Assembly (NCBI GenBank): GCA_025054655.1
Contig: JANWZL010000076.1
Location: forward strand, 1-40,300
Source: Thiobacillaceae bacterium
GTDB lineage: Bacteria > Pseudomonadota > Gammaproteobacteria > Burkholderiales > Thiobacillaceae
Direction of reading: 5' to 3'
DNA length: 40,300 nucleotides
Positions 12,744 to 21,732 of the stretch are shown here, piece after piece. The notes under the pieces were generated by a model. It ran no database searches and was not told the DNA's origin. It saw only the letters and a program-made list of their open reading frames with translations. The position numbers and the translations under genes were made by a program. How positions within the stretch are numbered: position 1 is the stretch's first letter; every line of letters starts with the position of its first letter.

Positions 12744-13178
12744 TCAGGGCTTGAGATAGACGAAACCCTCCCTGGCCTGCAGGCGTCCGATCTCCGCCAC
12801 GCCCGAGGGCACGATGCTTGCGTCCATGATCACGGCGGAGTCGTCCAGCTTGCGCCCCTGCAGGGTGTTGCGGCAGACGCGGAATTCCACGCCCTGGTCC
12901 TTCAGGCCCACCACCTGCGGCTGGTAGGGCTCGCCCTTGTCGTCCTTGGCGCCGTTGAGCAGGAAGTCTATGCCCTTGCCATGGGTGACCACCACGATCT
13001 TGGTGCCGGGGCTGGCGGTGATGTGGTTTTGGATGTTGCGCAGGGCGGTGCGCGCCACGGCCGAGTCGTTGATGTGATAGACCACCTTCTCCTGTTTCGG
13101 GTCGGCGGCGGGGCCGGCGGTGGCGCAGCCGGTGATGCCGAGGATCAGGGCGCTGGCCATGAGTGCTTGACGGATCAT
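12744..13178 (-). CDS. DsrE-like family putative lipoprotein
   Basis: Signal peptide with lipobox ITG-C (MIRQALMASALILGITGCATAG); DsrE-like core KVVYHINDS...IVVVTHGKGIDFLL...GVEFRVCRNTLQ...GVAEIGRLQAREGFVYLKP. Confidence 0.85.
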   Translation of the reverse strand: MIRQALMASALILGITGCATAGPAADPKQEKVVYHINDSAVARTALRNIQNHITASPGTKIVVVTHGKGIDFLLNGAKDDKGEPYQPQVVGLKDQGVEFRVCRNTLQGRKLDDSAVIMDASIVPSGVAEIGRLQAREGFVYLKP

Positions 13179-13241: not shown

Positions 13242-13271
13242 TATAGACGTGGTCGGTGGGCGTTTTATTCC
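13242..13271 (-). promoter_or_regulatory. Predicted ECF-type promoter of the DsrE-like lipoprotein gene
   Basis: - strand GGAATA (13271-13266) - N16 - CGTCTATA (13249-13242); spacing and hexamers identical to the divergent promoter. Confidence 0.8.
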
Positions 13272-13290: not shown

Positions 13291-13320
13291 GGAATATCCT
13301 GACCGTAATCGGCGTCTATA
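13291..13320 (+). promoter_or_regulatory. Predicted ECF-type promoter of the ECF sigma / DsrE-anti-sigma operon
   Basis: GGAATA (13291-13296) - N16 - CGTCTATA (13313-13320), 20 nt before the ATG at 13340, with GGAGGAGG-like SD between. Confidence 0.8.
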
Positions 13321-13339: not shown

Positions 13340-13888
13340 ATGCGACTGCCCTGGTTGCGGCTGTGGGATGCCTCCCTGCAGCGCGAGCTGGCGGCCCTGC
13401 GCCCGCGGCTCTACCGCCTGGCCTATGCCTGGTGTCACGATCCTCACCTGGCCGACGACCTGGCCCAGGAGGCGCTCACCCGCGCCCTGGCGCACGGCGA
13501 CCAGCTCAAGGATGCTGGCCGGCTGTCGGCCTGGCTGTTCGCCATCCTCAACAACTGCTGGCGCGACCATCTGCGTGCGCGCCGCGACTGCTGCGATGTG
13601 GACACGCTCGACGAGCTGATCGACGAGGCCCAGCCCGGACCGGAGGGCGCGTACGCGTCGCGCCAGGCCGCCGACCGCGTGCGCGCGGCGATCGGCAGCC
13701 TGCCGCTCGCGCAGCGGCAGGTGCTCACCCTGGTGGACCTCGAGGGGTTGAGCTATGCCGAGACGGCAGGCGTGCTCGGGGTCCCGGTCGGCACGGTGAT
13801 GAGCCGGCTGGCGCGTGCGCGCGAAAGCCTGCGCGAGCGCCTGCTACGCCCGCAGGCGCAAGGTGTAGCGCTACGGAGGGTCAAATGA
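13340..13888 (+). CDS. ECF RNA polymerase sigma factor (sigma70 region 2 and 4)
   Basis: LYRLAYAWCHDPHLADDLAQEALTRAL (region 2) and QRQVLTLVDLEGLSYAETAGVLGVPVGTVMSRLARARESLRERL (region 4). Confidence 0.95.
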   Translation: MRLPWLRLWDASLQRELAALRPRLYRLAYAWCHDPHLADDLAQEALTRALAHGDQLKDAGRLSAWLFAILNNCWRDHLRARRDCCDVDTLDELIDEAQPGPEGAYASRQAADRVRAAIGSLPLAQRQVLTLVDLEGLSYAETAGVLGVPVGTVMSRLARARESLRERLLRPQAQGVALRRVK

Positions 13889-14604
13889 ACGCGCCTTATT
13901 CCCGTGAACACCTTGGCGCCTTCGTCGATGGCGAGCTCGACGCTGGCGAGCGCGAGCGGCTGCTGGCCCGCCTGCAGCAGGACCCCGCCGTGCGGGCCGA
14001 GGTGTGCGAGCTGCTGGCCGTGAAGGCGATGGTGAAGGCCTGCTATCAGGACCTGGCCAGCCCGCGTGCGCCTACCCACGCAGCCCGCCGCGGAAGGGGA
14101 TGGGCGCAGGCCCTGGCCGCCGGGGTGTTGTTCGCCGGTGGGCTGGGTCTGGGTTGGCTGATGAACGAGGGCCAGCACCGCCCACCTCCCTCCCTGCAGG
14201 TGGACGGTCTGCCGGCGGGCTTCCAGGCGGTGGCGGCGACCCCCCGGCCCGACGTGCGCAGCCTCATCCTGCACGTGGACAGCGGCGAGCGCGCTGTGCT
14301 GGAACGCGCCCTGGCCCTGGCCGAGTCGCTGCTCGCGCAGGATGGGCGGCGACGGGTGGAGGTCGTCGTGCACAGCGCAGGCCTCGACCTGTTGCGCGCC
14401 GACGTCACCCCTTTCCGCGCGCGTATCGAGCGGCTGGCTCGCATGCACGCCAACCTGAGCTTCGTCGCCTGCGGCAACACCATCGCGCGGCTGACACGCG
14501 AGGGCAAACGGGTCGTCCTGCTGCCGCAGGCGCGCAAGGTCGATTCCGCCGTGGGCAACATCGTGCAGCGGTTGCGGCAGGGCTGGGTGTACATCAAGGT
14601 CTGA
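13885..14604 (+). CDS. Membrane anti-sigma factor with C-terminal DsrE-like domain
   Basis: ATGA overlap with sigma gene; N-term LGAFVDGELDAGERERLLARLQQDPAVRAEV anti-sigma-like; TM WAQALAAGVLFAGGLGLGWLM; C-term RSLILHVDSGE...VEVVVHSAGLDLL...LSFVACGNTIARL...GNIVQRLRQGWVYIKV aligns by eye with the DsrE-like protein at 12744-13178. Confidence 0.85.
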   Translation: MNAPYSREHLGAFVDGELDAGERERLLARLQQDPAVRAEVCELLAVKAMVKACYQDLASPRAPTHAARRGRGWAQALAAGVLFAGGLGLGWLMNEGQHRPPPSLQVDGLPAGFQAVAATPRPDVRSLILHVDSGERAVLERALALAESLLAQDGRRRVEVVVHSAGLDLLRADVTPFRARIERLARMHANLSFVACGNTIARLTREGKRVVLLPQARKVDSAVGNIVQRLRQGWVYIKV

Positions 14605-14838: not shown

Positions 14839-15756
14839 ATGCAGATCGGTCTCTACGGCTTGGGCCGCATGGGCGGCAACATGGCCCGTCGGCTCGCGCG
14901 TGCCGGGGTGCGGGTACATGCCTTCAACCGTAGCGTGGAGGTGGCGCGGGCCATCGCCGCCGAAGAGCCCATGGTCACGGCCTACGACAGCCTGCAAGCC
15001 CTGGTGCAGGGGATGAGCGGCCCGCGCATCCTGTGGCTCATGCTGCCGGCGGGCGAGCCGACACAAAAGGCGGTGGACGAGGTCGCGGCCTGGCTCGCGC
15101 CCGGCGACCTGCTGGTCGATGGGGCCAACGGTTATTACAAGGACGCGCAGCGGCGCGCCGCCGGGTTGGCACAGCGCGGCATCCACTTCGTCGATGTGGG
15201 GGTGTCGGGCGGCATCTGGGGCCTGGAGTATGGCTACTGCCTGATGGCCGGCGGGGCGCCCGAGGCGGTCGCGCGTCTGGCCCCCTATCTGCAGGCCCTC
15301 GCCCCGGCGCCGGACCGCGGCTGGCTGCATGCCGGACCGGTGGGGGCGGGGCATTTCGTCAAGATGATCCACAACGGCATCGAATACGGCATGATGCAGG
15401 CCCTGGCCGAGGGCTTCGCCCTGATGCAGGCCAAGCGCGAGTTTGACCTGGACCTGGCAGCGATCGCCGAAGTGTGGCGGCATGGCTCGGTGGTGCGTTC
15501 CTGGCTGCTCGATCTCACCGCCGAGTTCCTCCAGGCCGATGCCGCGCTGGAGGCGGTCGTCCCCCATGTGGCCGATTCCGGTGAGGGGCGCTGGACGGCA
15601 CAGGAGGCGATCGAGCAGGGCGTGCCGGCGCCGGTGATCACCCTGGCCCTGATGAGCCGCTTCGCCAGCCAGGGCCGGGGTGACTTCGCCCACAAGCTGC
15701 TCGCCATGATGCGCAAGGGCTTCGGCGGGCATGCGGTGGTGAGGGGTGAGGAGTGA
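14839..15756 (+). CDS. gnd: 6-phosphogluconate dehydrogenase, decarboxylating (short form)
   Basis: MQIGLYGLGRMGGNMARRLARAG, DGANGYYKDAQRR, GVSGGIWGLEYGYCLMAGG, VGAGHFVKMIHNGIEYGMMQALAEGF. Confidence 0.95.
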   Translation: MQIGLYGLGRMGGNMARRLARAGVRVHAFNRSVEVARAIAAEEPMVTAYDSLQALVQGMSGPRILWLMLPAGEPTQKAVDEVAAWLAPGDLLVDGANGYYKDAQRRAAGLAQRGIHFVDVGVSGGIWGLEYGYCLMAGGAPEAVARLAPYLQALAPAPDRGWLHAGPVGAGHFVKMIHNGIEYGMMQALAEGFALMQAKREFDLDLAAIAEVWRHGSVVRSWLLDLTAEFLQADAALEAVVPHVADSGEGRWTAQEAIEQGVPAPVITLALMSRFASQGRGDFAHKLLAMMRKGFGGHAVVRGEE

Positions 15757-15765
15757 GGGGGGATC

Positions 15766-17247
15766 ATGATCGATCAGGAGATGCCGCTGCCGCCGTGCAA
15801 CTTCGTCATCTTCGGGGCCACTGGCAACCTCTCCACCACCAAGCTGCTGCCGGCCCTGCTGCGGCTGGAGCAGGCCGGGCGGCTGCCGCAGGCGCTCAAT
15901 TTCATCGCCTTTGCCCGGCGCGACTGGGATGAGGCCGCCTGGCGCAACTACATGCGGGAGGTGTTAAGCGGGCGGGTGCAGGTCGAGACCGAGGTGTTGC
16001 AGCGTTTCGTCGCGCGCTTCGACTACCTGCGCGGTGAGCTGCACGACCCCGAGGCTTACGCGCGGCTCAAAGAGATGCTCTCCAGGCCCAAGCTGGGCGC
16101 CTGCTCCAACATCGTGTTCTATCTGGCCATCAAGCCGCACGACTTCCCGCCGGTGATCAAACACCTCGACGCGGTGGGCCTGTCCAAGCCGCGCGGGCTG
16201 CACCGCATCGTGGTGGAGAAGCCCTTTGGCGAGGACATCGAGTCGGCCAAGGTGCTCAACGAGCTGCTGCACCGCTATTTCGAGGAGGAGCAGATCTTCC
16301 GCATCGACCATTACATGGGCAAGGAGACGGTGCAGAACCTGCTCGTCTTCCGCTTCGCCAACACCCTGATCGAGCCCCTGTGGAACCGCAACTACATCGA
16401 CCACGTGCAGATCACCGTGGCCGAGGAGGGCGGCATCGACCGGCGCGCCGATTACTACGACCAGGCGGGGGCCCTGCGCGACATGCTGCAGAACCATCTC
16501 ATGCAACTGCTCACCCTGGTGGCCATGGAGCCGCCGCCGGCGCTGGAGGCCGACGCCCTGCGCGACGAGAAGGTCAAGGTGCTGCGCTCCATCCGCCCCA
16601 TCCCCAAGGGCGCCGTGCATGCCCACGCCTTCCGCGCCCAGTACAAGGCGGGGGTGGTGCGTGGCGAGCAGGTGCCGGGCTATCAGGACGAGCCGGGCGT
16701 GGCGCCCAACTCCATCACCGAAACCTTCGTGGCGGCCAAGTTCTACATCGACAACTGGCGCTGGCGCGGGGTGCCGTTCTACCTGCGCACCGGCAAACGC
16801 ATGAAGGCGCAGCTGTCCATGATCGCCCTGCGGCTGCGCTATCCGCCGCAGCAGCTGTTCCGCGAGACCCCGCTGGAGACGCTGGAGCCCAATTGGATCG
16901 TGCTGTCCATCCAGCCCTCCGAGTGCATGCACATGGAGCTGCACGCCAAGGCGCCAGGGCTGGGCATGGACACCCGGGTGGTCAAGCTCAACGCCAGCTA
17001 CCGCAGCCCCGACGAACGGCCCATGGAGGCCTACGAGGCGCTGCTGCTGGACGTCATCGAGGGCGACCGCACCCTGTTCATCCGCTTCGACGAGGTGGAA
17101 TGGGCCTGGCGGGTAGTGGACCCGATCCTCACCCACTGGGCCACCGAGCGCGATTTCATCCACACCTACCCGGCCGGCACCTGGGGCCCGCTGGAGGCCA
17201 ACCGCCTGTTCGACCGCGAGGACACCGAGTGGCGTAACCATGTCTGA
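15766..17247 (+). CDS. zwf: Glucose-6-phosphate 1-dehydrogenase
   Basis: [62 protein letters not shown]. Confidence 0.97.
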
Positions 17248-19059: not shown

Positions 19060-19157
19060 CTGGCAGCCAGGTGGGTCAGGCCGGTTATACTAGCCCCACA
19101 ACCGATTGGGAAGCCCTGCCCGTCAGGGCAGCCAGGCACGCGAGAGGAAGCTCGGGG

Positions 19158-19757
19158 ATGAGTGAACGGGATGCCGACCTGCTCCTGGTGGAACGGGTGC
19201 GACAGGGCGACAAGCGCGCCTTCGAGCTGCTGGTGGAGAAATACCGGCGCAAGATCGGGCGGCTGCTCGCACGCATGGTGCGCGACCCGGAGGAGGTCCA
19301 GGACATCGCCCAGGAGACCTTCATCAAGGCCTACCGGGCGCTGCCGCAGTTCCGCGGCGATGCGGCCTTTTACACCTGGCTGTATCGCATCGCGGTGAAC
19401 ACGGCGAAGAACTATATGACCGCGCGTAACCGTGAGATGTCCACGGTGAGCGAGGTGGCCGGCGAAGAGGAGGAGGGTGGCGAGGAGCGCTATGCGGCGC
19501 CCGACATCGACACCCCGGAAGGGCATCTGCTGTCCAAGCAGATCGCCTACGCGGTGAACGAAGCGGTCGAGGCCCTGCCGGAAGAGTTGCGCACGGCCAT
19601 CACCCTGCGCGAGATCGAAGGCATGAGTTATGAGGACATTGCGAATTTCATGGGGTGCCCGATCGGCACGGTACGCTCGCGCATCTTCCGCGCGCGCGAG
19701 GCCATCGCCGCCAAGCTGCGCCCCATCTTGGGCACATCCGAGGATCAGCGATGGTGA
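19158..19757 (+). CDS. rpoE: RNA polymerase sigma factor RpoE (AlgU)
   Basis: MSERDADLLLVERVRQGDKRAFELLVEKYRRKIGRLLARMVRDPEEVQDIAQETFIKAYRALPQFRGDAAFYTWLYRIAVNTAKN; followed by rseABC-mucD. Confidence 0.98.
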   Translation: MSERDADLLLVERVRQGDKRAFELLVEKYRRKIGRLLARMVRDPEEVQDIAQETFIKAYRALPQFRGDAAFYTWLYRIAVNTAKNYMTARNREMSTVSEVAGEEEEGGEERYAAPDIDTPEGHLLSKQIAYAVNEAVEALPEELRTAITLREIEGMSYEDIANFMGCPIGTVRSRIFRAREAIAAKLRPILGTSEDQRW

Positions 19758-20284
19758 CGACAGTGCATGAAGAACACGATCGACGGGCCGATGCGGAGCG
19801 GCTGTCTGCTCTGCTGGACGGGGAATTGGATGCGCACGAGACCAGCCTGTGCCTGCGCCGGCTGGGCCATGACGCCGCCCTGTCGCGGCAATGGGCGGAG
19901 TATTGTCTGATCCGTGACGCCCTACGCGGTGAGGCACTGGTCCAACCCGGCCTGTGCCGGCGGGTGCACGCCGCGCTGGCGCAGGAGCCCACCATCCTCG
20001 CACCCATGCGCCGCCGCAGCGAACGCCGGCGCTGGCTGCGCGGCGCCGGTCTGGTCGCAGCGGCCGCGGCGGTGGGGGGGCTGACCTGGATGCTGTGGAC
20101 GGCCGCACCCCAATCCGAGGCCATGTCGCCGCAGACCGAGAGCGCATCGGTCGAGACCATGACCGCGCATCACCCGCTGCAGCCCTATCTGGCCGCCCAT
20201 CAGGACTTCGCCCAAGGCGTGGCGGTGTACCCGCAAGTGAGGCTCACACGGGTCTCCTGGCCGGCAGCGGAGGGCGGCCGGTGA
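19751..20284 (+). CDS. rseA: Anti-sigmaE factor RseA (MucA)
   Basis: AERLSALLDGELDAHETSLCLRRLGHDAALSRQWAEYCLIRDALRG; single TM; position after rpoE. Confidence 0.93.
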   Translation: MVTTVHEEHDRRADAERLSALLDGELDAHETSLCLRRLGHDAALSRQWAEYCLIRDALRGEALVQPGLCRRVHAALAQEPTILAPMRRRSERRRWLRGAGLVAAAAAVGGLTWMLWTAAPQSEAMSPQTESASVETMTAHHPLQPYLAAHQDFAQGVAVYPQVRLTRVSWPAAEGGR

Positions 20285-21240
20285 GCGCGCCAGCGCTGCG
20301 ATCCGTCCTCGCCTTGGTCCTAGGCCTGACCTGTATCGCCGAGGGTGCGGCGAACGAGGCCCTGTCGGCGCAGGAGGCCGGCCAATGGCTGCAGCGGGTG
20401 GCCGACAGCGCACGGCGGCTGACCTACGAGGGCAAGTTCGTCTTCCAGCAGGGCGATGTCCTGCAGACGATGTACGTCGTCAGCCGTGCGAGCGGCGGCC
20501 AGAAACACACCCAGCTCGTCACCCTGGATGGCACGCCGCGCGAGCTCCTCTGCCGCGAGGGCGAGACCCTGATCGTCACGCACGAGGGCGGTGCGCCGCG
20601 CGTGGAGCGGCGGCCGGGCAGCCGCCATTTCCCCGATCTGCTACCGGCCAATGCCGCAGTGCTGGTCAACTGGTACAGCGTACGCTGGGGGGAGAACGAC
20701 CGCGTGGCCGGGCTCGACTGCCGCTGGCTGGAGCTGGCGCCGCGCGATGTCTATCGCTGGCGCCACGAGCTGTGTGTGGAGAAAGACAGCCTGCTGCCGC
20801 TCAAGGCCGTGATGGTGAACGAGGCGGGCCGGCCGCTGCAGCAGTACGCCTTCACCGAGGTGACCATAGGCACCGGCGTGCGCCCGGCCGCCCCGCAGCG
20901 CAGTCTGCCTGCCGTGGAACCGCCGCCGTTGCGGGCGAGCACCGCCGACATGCTCACCCTGCGGCAGCTGCCTCCCGGCTACACACGCATCGCCGCGGTC
21001 AAGCGGCGCCTGCCCAACCGCCCGCAGGAGGTCGAGCATTGGCTTTACAGCGACGGGCTGACCTACATCTCGCTGTTCATCGAGCCTGCCACACGGCCGC
21101 TGGAGCCGTTCAAGGGGGCGAGCCCGCGCGGCATGCTCAACCTGCTCAGCCGCAGGGTGGGTAACTGGCAGGTCACCGTACTGGGCGATGCGCCCTGGCC
21201 GGCGGTGGAGGCGATCGCCCATGCCGTGGCGGAGCGCTAA
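20281..21240 (+). CDS. rseB: Sigma-E factor regulatory protein RseB (MucB)
   Basis: GTG start overlapping rseA stop; AQEAGQWLQRVADSARRLTYEGKFVFQQGDVLQTMYVVSR..., YSDGLTYISLFIEP. Confidence 0.93.
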   Translation: MSAPALRSVLALVLGLTCIAEGAANEALSAQEAGQWLQRVADSARRLTYEGKFVFQQGDVLQTMYVVSRASGGQKHTQLVTLDGTPRELLCREGETLIVTHEGGAPRVERRPGSRHFPDLLPANAAVLVNWYSVRWGENDRVAGLDCRWLELAPRDVYRWRHELCVEKDSLLPLKAVMVNEAGRPLQQYAFTEVTIGTGVRPAAPQRSLPAVEPPPLRASTADMLTLRQLPPGYTRIAAVKRRLPNRPQEVEHWLYSDGLTYISLFIEPATRPLEPFKGASPRGMLNLLSRRVGNWQVTVLGDAPWPAVEAIAHAVAER

Positions 21241-21276
21241 AGGGGTGGTGATCCCGCCTGGATCGGGTGACCACCC

Positions 21277-21732
21277 ATGATCGAGACCACTGCCCGCGTC
21301 GTCCGCTTGGAAGGGAACACCGCCTGGGTGCGGGTGGATTCACCCGCTGGCTGCGGCGCTTGCGGCGGCAGGGGCTGCGGCACCGCGTTGTTCGCCCGCC
21401 TGTTCGACCCGCGGGAACCCGAGTACCCCGTGGCCAATCCCATAGACGCCCGGCCGGGTGACACGGTGGTGGTGGGAGTGGAGGACGGCGAGCTGCTCAA
21501 GGCGGCCCTGGCCGGTTATGTGCTACCCCTCGGCCTGCTCGTGTTGGGCGCCCTGCTCGGCTCGGCGCTGGGTGAGGCGGCGGCCGCGCTGGGTGCGGCC
21601 CTGGGGCTAGTGCTTGCCTGGTGGCTGTTGCGCTTGCGGCCGTTTGCCCGCGCGCCGGTGATCCTGCGCCAGCTGCCCCCGAAACCGGCGGGCACGCACT
21701 GTCTTTCTGGCAATCGACTGGAAGAGAGGTGA
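21277..21732 (+). CDS. rseC: SoxR-reducing/RseC family protein
   Basis: MIETTARVVRLEGNTAWVRVDSPAGCGACGGRGCGTALFARLF Cys motif followed by two TM helices. Confidence 0.92.
   Translation: MIETTARVVRLEGNTAWVRVDSPAGCGACGGRGCGTALFARLFDPREPEYPVANPIDARPGDTVVVGVEDGELLKAALAGYVLPLGLLVLGALLGSALGEAAAALGAALGLVLAWWLLRLRPFARAPVILRQLPPKPAGTHCLSGNRLEER

Follow-up and report, generated by a model that had tools for sequence, protein, structure and literature searches.

The closest described systems are the sigma/anti-sigma pairs of group ECF26, namely RpoE1-EcfR1, RpoE4-EcfR4 and RpoE6-EcfR6 of S. meliloti and SigE of Starkeya novella (PMC3511301, PMC6180224, PMC6527743). Common to these pairs and the locus described here are a -35 GGAATA/-10 CGTC promoter type, autoregulation (predicted here), the order of a sigma gene followed by that of a membrane anti-sigma factor, and an N-terminal anti-sigma domain. 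RpoE1, RpoE4 and SigE are likewise tied to the oxidation of reduced sulfur (sorT, sorAB). The target of the ECF26 pairs is a sulfite dehydrogenase, whereas the predicted targets of the present locus are an exported DsrE protein and sox genes; the C-terminal domains of ECF26 anti-sigma factors are said to resemble RsiW, whereas that of the present protein has a DsrE fold. The mechanism by which the ECF26 sigmas of S. meliloti are activated is still termed hypothetical (PMC6180224).

In fold and in the position of a conserved Cys, the domain in question is like the MTH1491/ST0148-type DsrE/DsrF-like proteins (1l1s, 2pd2), TusBCD/DsrEFH and DsrE3A. The characterised DsrEFH, TusBCD and DsrE3A proteins are soluble cytoplasmic carriers. 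Unlike them, the DsrE domain of the fusion is membrane-anchored, predicted to lie outside the cytoplasm, and joined to an anti-sigma domain.

Sensing of external sulfur by the regulators of sulfur oxidation has been called poorly understood (PMC11582611). ECF sigma factors were shown to control sox genes in Arcobacter butzleri, the signal being unknown (PMC3445524); DsrE is not mentioned in that paper (whole-word count 0). Sulfane sulfur controls sulfur-oxidation genes through the ArsR-type repressors SoxR and sHdrR (PMC10451225, PMC11582611), and control of such genes by sulfane sulfur is the feature in common with the proposal made here. These repressors are cytoplasmic, and signalling by SoxR needs the membrane protein SoxT1B, whereas the putative sensor of the fusion would itself be outside the membrane. 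The beta-lactam sensor BlaR1 has an extracytoplasmic domain homologous to the secreted protein which it induces. BlaR1 and the fusion are unrelated proteins, and where a sigma factor would act in the present system, BlaR1 relies on a protease and a repressor. A literature search on DsrE with anti-sigma factors, ECF sigma factors or sox genes returned no account of the fusion; the search excluded the 2021 ECF reclassification paper (NAR gkaa1229), in which an earlier mention is possible.

We describe an ECF26-type sigma/anti-sigma pair with a DsrE domain in place of the usual extracytoplasmic domain. It is probably a periplasmic reduced-sulfur sensor which induces an exported DsrE protein and, in several lineages, sox genes; its topology, the inhibition of the sigma factor, the signal, the chemistry of Cys196 and the mode of release are inferred. 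The fusion is a testable candidate for extracytoplasmic sulfur sensing in sulfur-oxidising bacteria, relatives of which hold the same pair inside thiosulfate-oxidation clusters.

Layout of the locus and its promoter-like elements

The window, that is, the whole stretch of 40,300 nucleotides analysed here (contig JANWZL010000076.1 of a Thiobacillaceae bacterium), carries a unit of four elements: a DsrE-family lipoprotein, two divergent promoter-like elements, an ECF sigma factor and an anti-sigma/DsrE fusion. Among named organisms, Thiobacillus-type betaproteobacteria are the closest relatives of the source genome. The features are:

12744..13178, minus strand: DsrE-family lipoprotein P0003, 144 aa (Pfam DsrE PF02635, E 1.2e-11; lipobox LGITGC read from the sequence)
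13244..13271, minus strand: promoter-like element GGAATA-N16-CGTCTA for the DsrE lipoprotein (shuffles, genome count, kept in relatives)
13291..13318, plus strand: promoter-like element GGAATA-N16-CGTCTA for the sigma/anti-sigma operon (shuffles, genome count, relatives, 97/99 fusion loci)
13340..13888, plus strand: ECF sigma factor P0002, 182 aa, ECF26-like (Sigma70_r2 and Sigma70_r4_2; profile scores)
13885..14604, plus strand: anti-sigma/DsrE fusion P0001, 239 aa (orthologue profile, AlphaFold2, Foldseek)
13885..14082, plus strand: non-zinc anti-sigma domain, residues 1-66, predicted cytoplasmic (homology with ECF26 anti-sigma N domains)
14089..14175, plus strand: transmembrane helix, residues 69-97 (AlphaFold2 helix; hydropathy maximum)
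14260..14601, plus strand: DsrE-like domain, residues 126-239, predicted extracytoplasmic (profile, AlphaFold2, Foldseek)
14470..14472, plus strand: codon of Cys196, candidate sulfur-reactive residue (invariant; aligned with the Cys of 1l1s and 2pd2)

The start of the fusion gene overlaps the stop codon of the sigma gene (ATGA). Orthologues of P0003 were 56-85% identical, with C102 invariant in 16. An Rfam search of the window gave no match. Genes resembling 6-phosphogluconate dehydrogenase and glucose-6-phosphate dehydrogenase are located downstream of the fusion (14840-17247); since such neighbours recur in a minority of related loci, a link to the fusion is doubtful and they are likely unrelated. 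At 19157-21732 the window also encodes a separate sigma of RpoE type; RseA-, RseB- and RseC-like genes accompany it, and a gene for a DegP/MucD-like protease comes next.

Based on profile scores, P0002 is closest to group ECF26. The sigma profile gave 140 bits to RpoE6 (ECF26), while the S. meliloti sigmas of ECF15, ECF29, ECF16 and ECF41 scored 80, 67, 38 and 20, respectively, and the window's own RpoE-type sigma 86. The group assignments were taken from PMC6180224, and affinity was judged against these individual S. meliloti sigmas, not against ECF group HMMs.

The window has two copies of the pattern GGAATA-N16-CGTCTA, one per strand, both in the interval separating the lipoprotein and sigma genes (0 in 100 shuffles), and no further copy was present elsewhere in the 2.2 Mb assembly. 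Both elements agree with the ECF26 consensus -35 GGAATA/-10 CGTC (PMC6180224, PMC6527743), for which a mapped promoter, that of rpoE4, reads GGAATAAGCGAGGCAGCTCGCTCGTCT (PMC6180224) and the form -35 GGAAT/-10 CGTC has also been given (PMC6527743); promoter activity is inferred from sequence alone. The divergent pair is kept in relatives across Burkholderiales families. Searching 41 genomes with the strict pattern returned mostly this locus, and there were few matches for a reversed-pattern control. The sigma gene was directly upstream of the fusion on the same strand in 99 of 99 fusion loci, the element preceding it in 97, and a 16-base spacer was present in 103 of 116 distinct elements. Eighty named DsrE loci included 62 with the sigma gene and 59 with both sigma and fusion. 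The element preceded the divergent DsrE gene in 60 of the 62 loci with the sigma versus 2 of the 18 without it (p 8e-13). An earlier, sequence-only reading of the locus had missed the ECF26-type divergent promoters, together with the conservation in many families and the sox operon linkage described below, which constitute stronger evidence than it had offered.

Elements were also observed upstream of another exported DsrE gene (L069), of a Thioredox_DsbH (DUF255) gene in two species of one genus (L067:3001 and L068:3001, an ECF26-type element, the L068 gene being equated with that of L067 by sequence), of a Cons_hypoth698 (YeiH-like) membrane protein (L072), and of a secreted protein which by eye is SoxB/5'-nucleotidase-like (L070). 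A match at the start of coaD in G009 (L071) and matches in G039, G040 and G045, which have no fitting gene behind them, were set aside as probably due to chance. In L035:2686-4080 (Pfam E 1.7e-10), L037, L042, L045, L046, L048, L057 and L059, the divergent exported DsrE gene(s) are immediately followed by a gene for a Porin_O_P outer-membrane protein, which is likely to be co-transcribed with them.

Structure and predicted topology of the fusion protein

The sequence-only reading had placed a DsrE-like domain at 14251-14604 (residues 123-239) on the strength of a by-eye alignment with the divergent lipoprotein, and had suggested structure modelling as a check. The claim held, with the modelled domain starting at residue 126. 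The by-eye alignment proved real, since BLASTP aligned 123 aa of the fusion and the lipoprotein with 24% identity (E 3e-5). The window protein alone was below the Pfam DsrE (PF02635) cut-off and gave no match; 8 of 29 fusion orthologues matched at E 0.1 or better, the best at 6.7e-6. A profile of these 29 sequences, of which 28 were relatives sharing 34-62% identity with the window protein, matched MTH1491 (1l1s) with E 1.1e-14 and ST0148 (2pd2) with E 1.2e-6 among 177,635 PDB sequences. The AlphaFold2 model had a mean pLDDT of 89, with values of 96-98 across most of the C-terminal domain, the limits of which were at about residues 126-238. Foldseek ranked 1l1s first (E 3.9e-8, TM 0.88 on target), followed by 8uja and 2pd2 and then by DsrEFH and YchN. 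The C-terminal domain is shown computationally, by profile and by AlphaFold2 with Foldseek, to have the DsrE fold and not an unrelated one.

Cys196 was unchanged in 102 of 102 non-redundant fusions. In the model it is located at the end of strand 191-196, before helix 197-205, and in the orthologue profile it is aligned with the Cys of both MTH1491 and ST0148. The other residues which never change are Y236, G166, G90 and D15, and H130 is kept in 93 of the 102. One detail of the by-eye alignment, 'VVVHS' against 'VVVTHGKG', failed as a conserved catalytic feature: H163, the His of 'VVVHS', is His in only 4 of the 102 fusions and Asn in 90, and it was rejected as a catalytic His. The sequence of the outer domain departs from those of enzymatic DsrE proteins, the window copy falling under the Pfam threshold, and this counts against the sensor reading. 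That this domain is the sensor, as had been suggested, remains an inference with which the invariance of Cys196 fits; there are no signal or sigma-binding data.

A single transmembrane helix was identified, with a hydropathy maximum at residues 74-94 and an AlphaFold2 helix at 69-97, which bears out the earlier estimate of about 14101-14163. Lys and Arg are richer on its N-terminal side (3.4 vs 1.8 per 20 aa, mean of 29), and homologous stand-alone DsrE proteins have export signals or a lipobox. Based on the single helix, the charge bias and the exported homologues, the DsrE domain is inferred to be outside the cytoplasm and the anti-sigma domain inside, in support of the orientation proposed before.

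Inspection of the N-terminal segment confirmed that the HX3CX2C zinc motif is absent, as claimed, and the zf-HC2 score was 19.6 bits against a cut-off of 22.2. The zinc anti-sigma (ZAS) class was rejected on these two grounds. The RseA class was rejected as well, since RseA_N gave weak matches in only 3 of 29 orthologues (best 0.044), no RseB-like ORF adjoins the fusion, and a separate RpoE/RseA-type locus is present at 19157-20284. A general envelope-stress switch of the RseA type, working by DegS/RseP proteolysis with the DsrE domain as a mere reporter of folding state, would draw support from the single-pass nature of the anti-sigma factor and from a weak likeness of its N domain to MucA/RseA (6in7, E 0.13). 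Against it stand the separate RpoE/RseA-type pair, and the promoter type and sox linkage, which indicate sulfur metabolism; it is very unlikely.

The profile of the N-terminal segment instead matched anti-sigma factors beside ECF26-like sigmas, those of Microvirga (1.5e-11), Ensifer (4.5e-10) and S. meliloti (EcfR6, 3e-8), in a search which ran on a small sequence set (E range 1e-11 to 4e-7). None of these ECF26-neighbour proteins was matched by the profile of the DsrE-like C-terminal domain. From the two profiles it is inferred that the ECF26 anti-sigma scaffold was retained and its outer domain exchanged for DsrE.

Alternatively, Cys41 in the N domain could respond to a cytoplasmic signal, the DsrE domain being a passive remnant or an enzyme. 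Cys41 is kept in 93 of 102 fusions, and the ECF26 sigmas of S. meliloti appeared to require sulfite made inside cells (PMC3511301). However, Cys41 is lost in 9 sequences and Cys196 in none, the motif HX3CX2C is missing, and the DsrE domain is kept in all lineages found. This explanation is considered unlikely.

Distribution of the fusion and linkage to sox genes

Genome contigs gave no match to the fusion protein as a lone query; the loci of relatives were found with the conserved DsrE lipoprotein as an anchor. In an order-wide search, full-length fusions were present in nearly 50 genomes of many families, and in 11 genomes, drawn from 5 families, no more than 5 kb separated soxB from the fusion. 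Outside the window's family, soxB was found in 30 of 30 genomes with the fusion versus 9 of 21 without it (p 2e-6, not corrected for phylogeny). Within that family soxB occurs with or without the fusion; the co-occurrence is therefore informative at the level of the order only.

In several families the element is followed on one strand by sigma, fusion, soxY, soxZ, (A/X) and soxB (L216, L223, L232, L058/L230). In L058 and L230 the sigma-fusion pair sits between two soxYZ copies. The order in L211 is sigma-fusion-soxA-soxX-soxB. The divergent element is directly upstream of soxYZAB in L221 and L231, and in L218 it precedes an exported DsrE-like gene followed by soxYZ-soxB. In L236:4438-9599, where the sigma locus is on another contig, an ECF26-type element precedes soxYZ-DsrE-soxX-soxB, with DsrE between soxZ and soxX.

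In the window's family, sox linkage was seen only as proximity (L037). The element was absent at the sox operons of the genomes checked in this family (L226, L227, L234, L235), so the regulon visible there is the sigma operon itself plus the exported DsrE gene. No element was seen on the sox contig of the window's own genome (L224), but that contig ends inside the operon; control of sox by this sigma in the window's own genome is unsupported. With the DsrE fold at the outer end of an ECF26-type anti-sigma factor, and with sox linkage in 5 families, there are now a specific domain, residue and promoter open to testing; cultured hosts for such tests include Thiobacillus thioparus and T. denitrificans.

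Proposed mechanism and separate origins of anti-sigma/DsrE fusions

In the proposed mechanism, the N domain would hold the ECF sigma at the membrane in the resting state. Periplasmic reduced sulfur would modify Cys196 of the outer domain and so relieve the inhibition. Candidate signals are tetrathionate, thiosulfate and the sulfane sulfur of a carrier, for instance SoxYZ or the secreted DsrE itself. Two findings are in keeping with this: tetrathionate converts Cys residues of DsrE3A proteins to Cys-S-thiosulfonates (PMC4175335), and RpoE1 and RpoE4 of S. meliloti respond to sulfite-generating compounds (PMC3511301). The lack of induction by added sulfite in that species counts against it. Release of the sigma may occur by proteolysis or by conformational change. 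The freed sigma would transcribe its own operon and the divergent exported DsrE gene from GGAATA-N16-CGTC promoters; in some genomes the Porin_O_P gene after the exported DsrE would join its targets, and in several other families so would the soxYZ(A)(X)B thiosulfate-oxidation operon.

Fusions of a zinc-finger anti-sigma domain, a transmembrane helix and a canonical DsrE domain were identified in 3 genomes of 2 other families (L204:3989-4693, L205:3992-4702, L060:3187-3885). The zf-HC2 matches were at E 3e-8 to 3e-12 with HX3CX2C present, and the DsrE matches at E 6e-9 to 2e-13. Each follows a different ECF sigma and lies beside divergent exported DsrE genes; GGAATAA -35-like elements are present at these loci, and the -10 differs. 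A third type joins an ECF26-like N domain to another DsrE subtype (GVVIQVSEADPAKW...) (L207:342-1001, L208:632-1747, L209:3995-4672), with an ECF26-like element nearby in L208 and L209. Given the zinc type and this further type, the combination of anti-sigma factor and DsrE arose at least twice.

It is possible that chemical sensing is not the role of the outer domain, and that the secreted DsrE protein induced by the sigma docks there to form a hetero-oligomer; anti-sigma activity would then be under feedback from the amount of that protein or from its sulfur load. The outer domain is homologous to, and genetically paired with, the product under its control, and the same pairing with divergent genes for exported DsrE proteins recurs in the zinc-type fusions, which arose separately. 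Proteins of the DsrE family are oligomeric (DsrEFH, YchN), which is a further point in favour. On the other hand, the fusion retains its own invariant Cys196 and Tyr236, and some fusion loci have sox genes but no DsrE gene (L221, L211).

Direct sensing by the outer domain is preferred here. Its bolder form, which could as well prove wrong as right, is that the DsrE fold was recruited at least twice, and probably three times, as an extracytoplasmic anti-sigma sensor, the reactive Cys of which would sense periplasmic reduced sulfur and turn on sox and the exported DsrE gene, the sensor being paralogous to the protein induced.

A DsrE-like hypothetical protein was also observed on a plasmid of Rhizobium tumorigenes (L194:3911-5027), where it adjoins a TlpA-type disulfide reductase.
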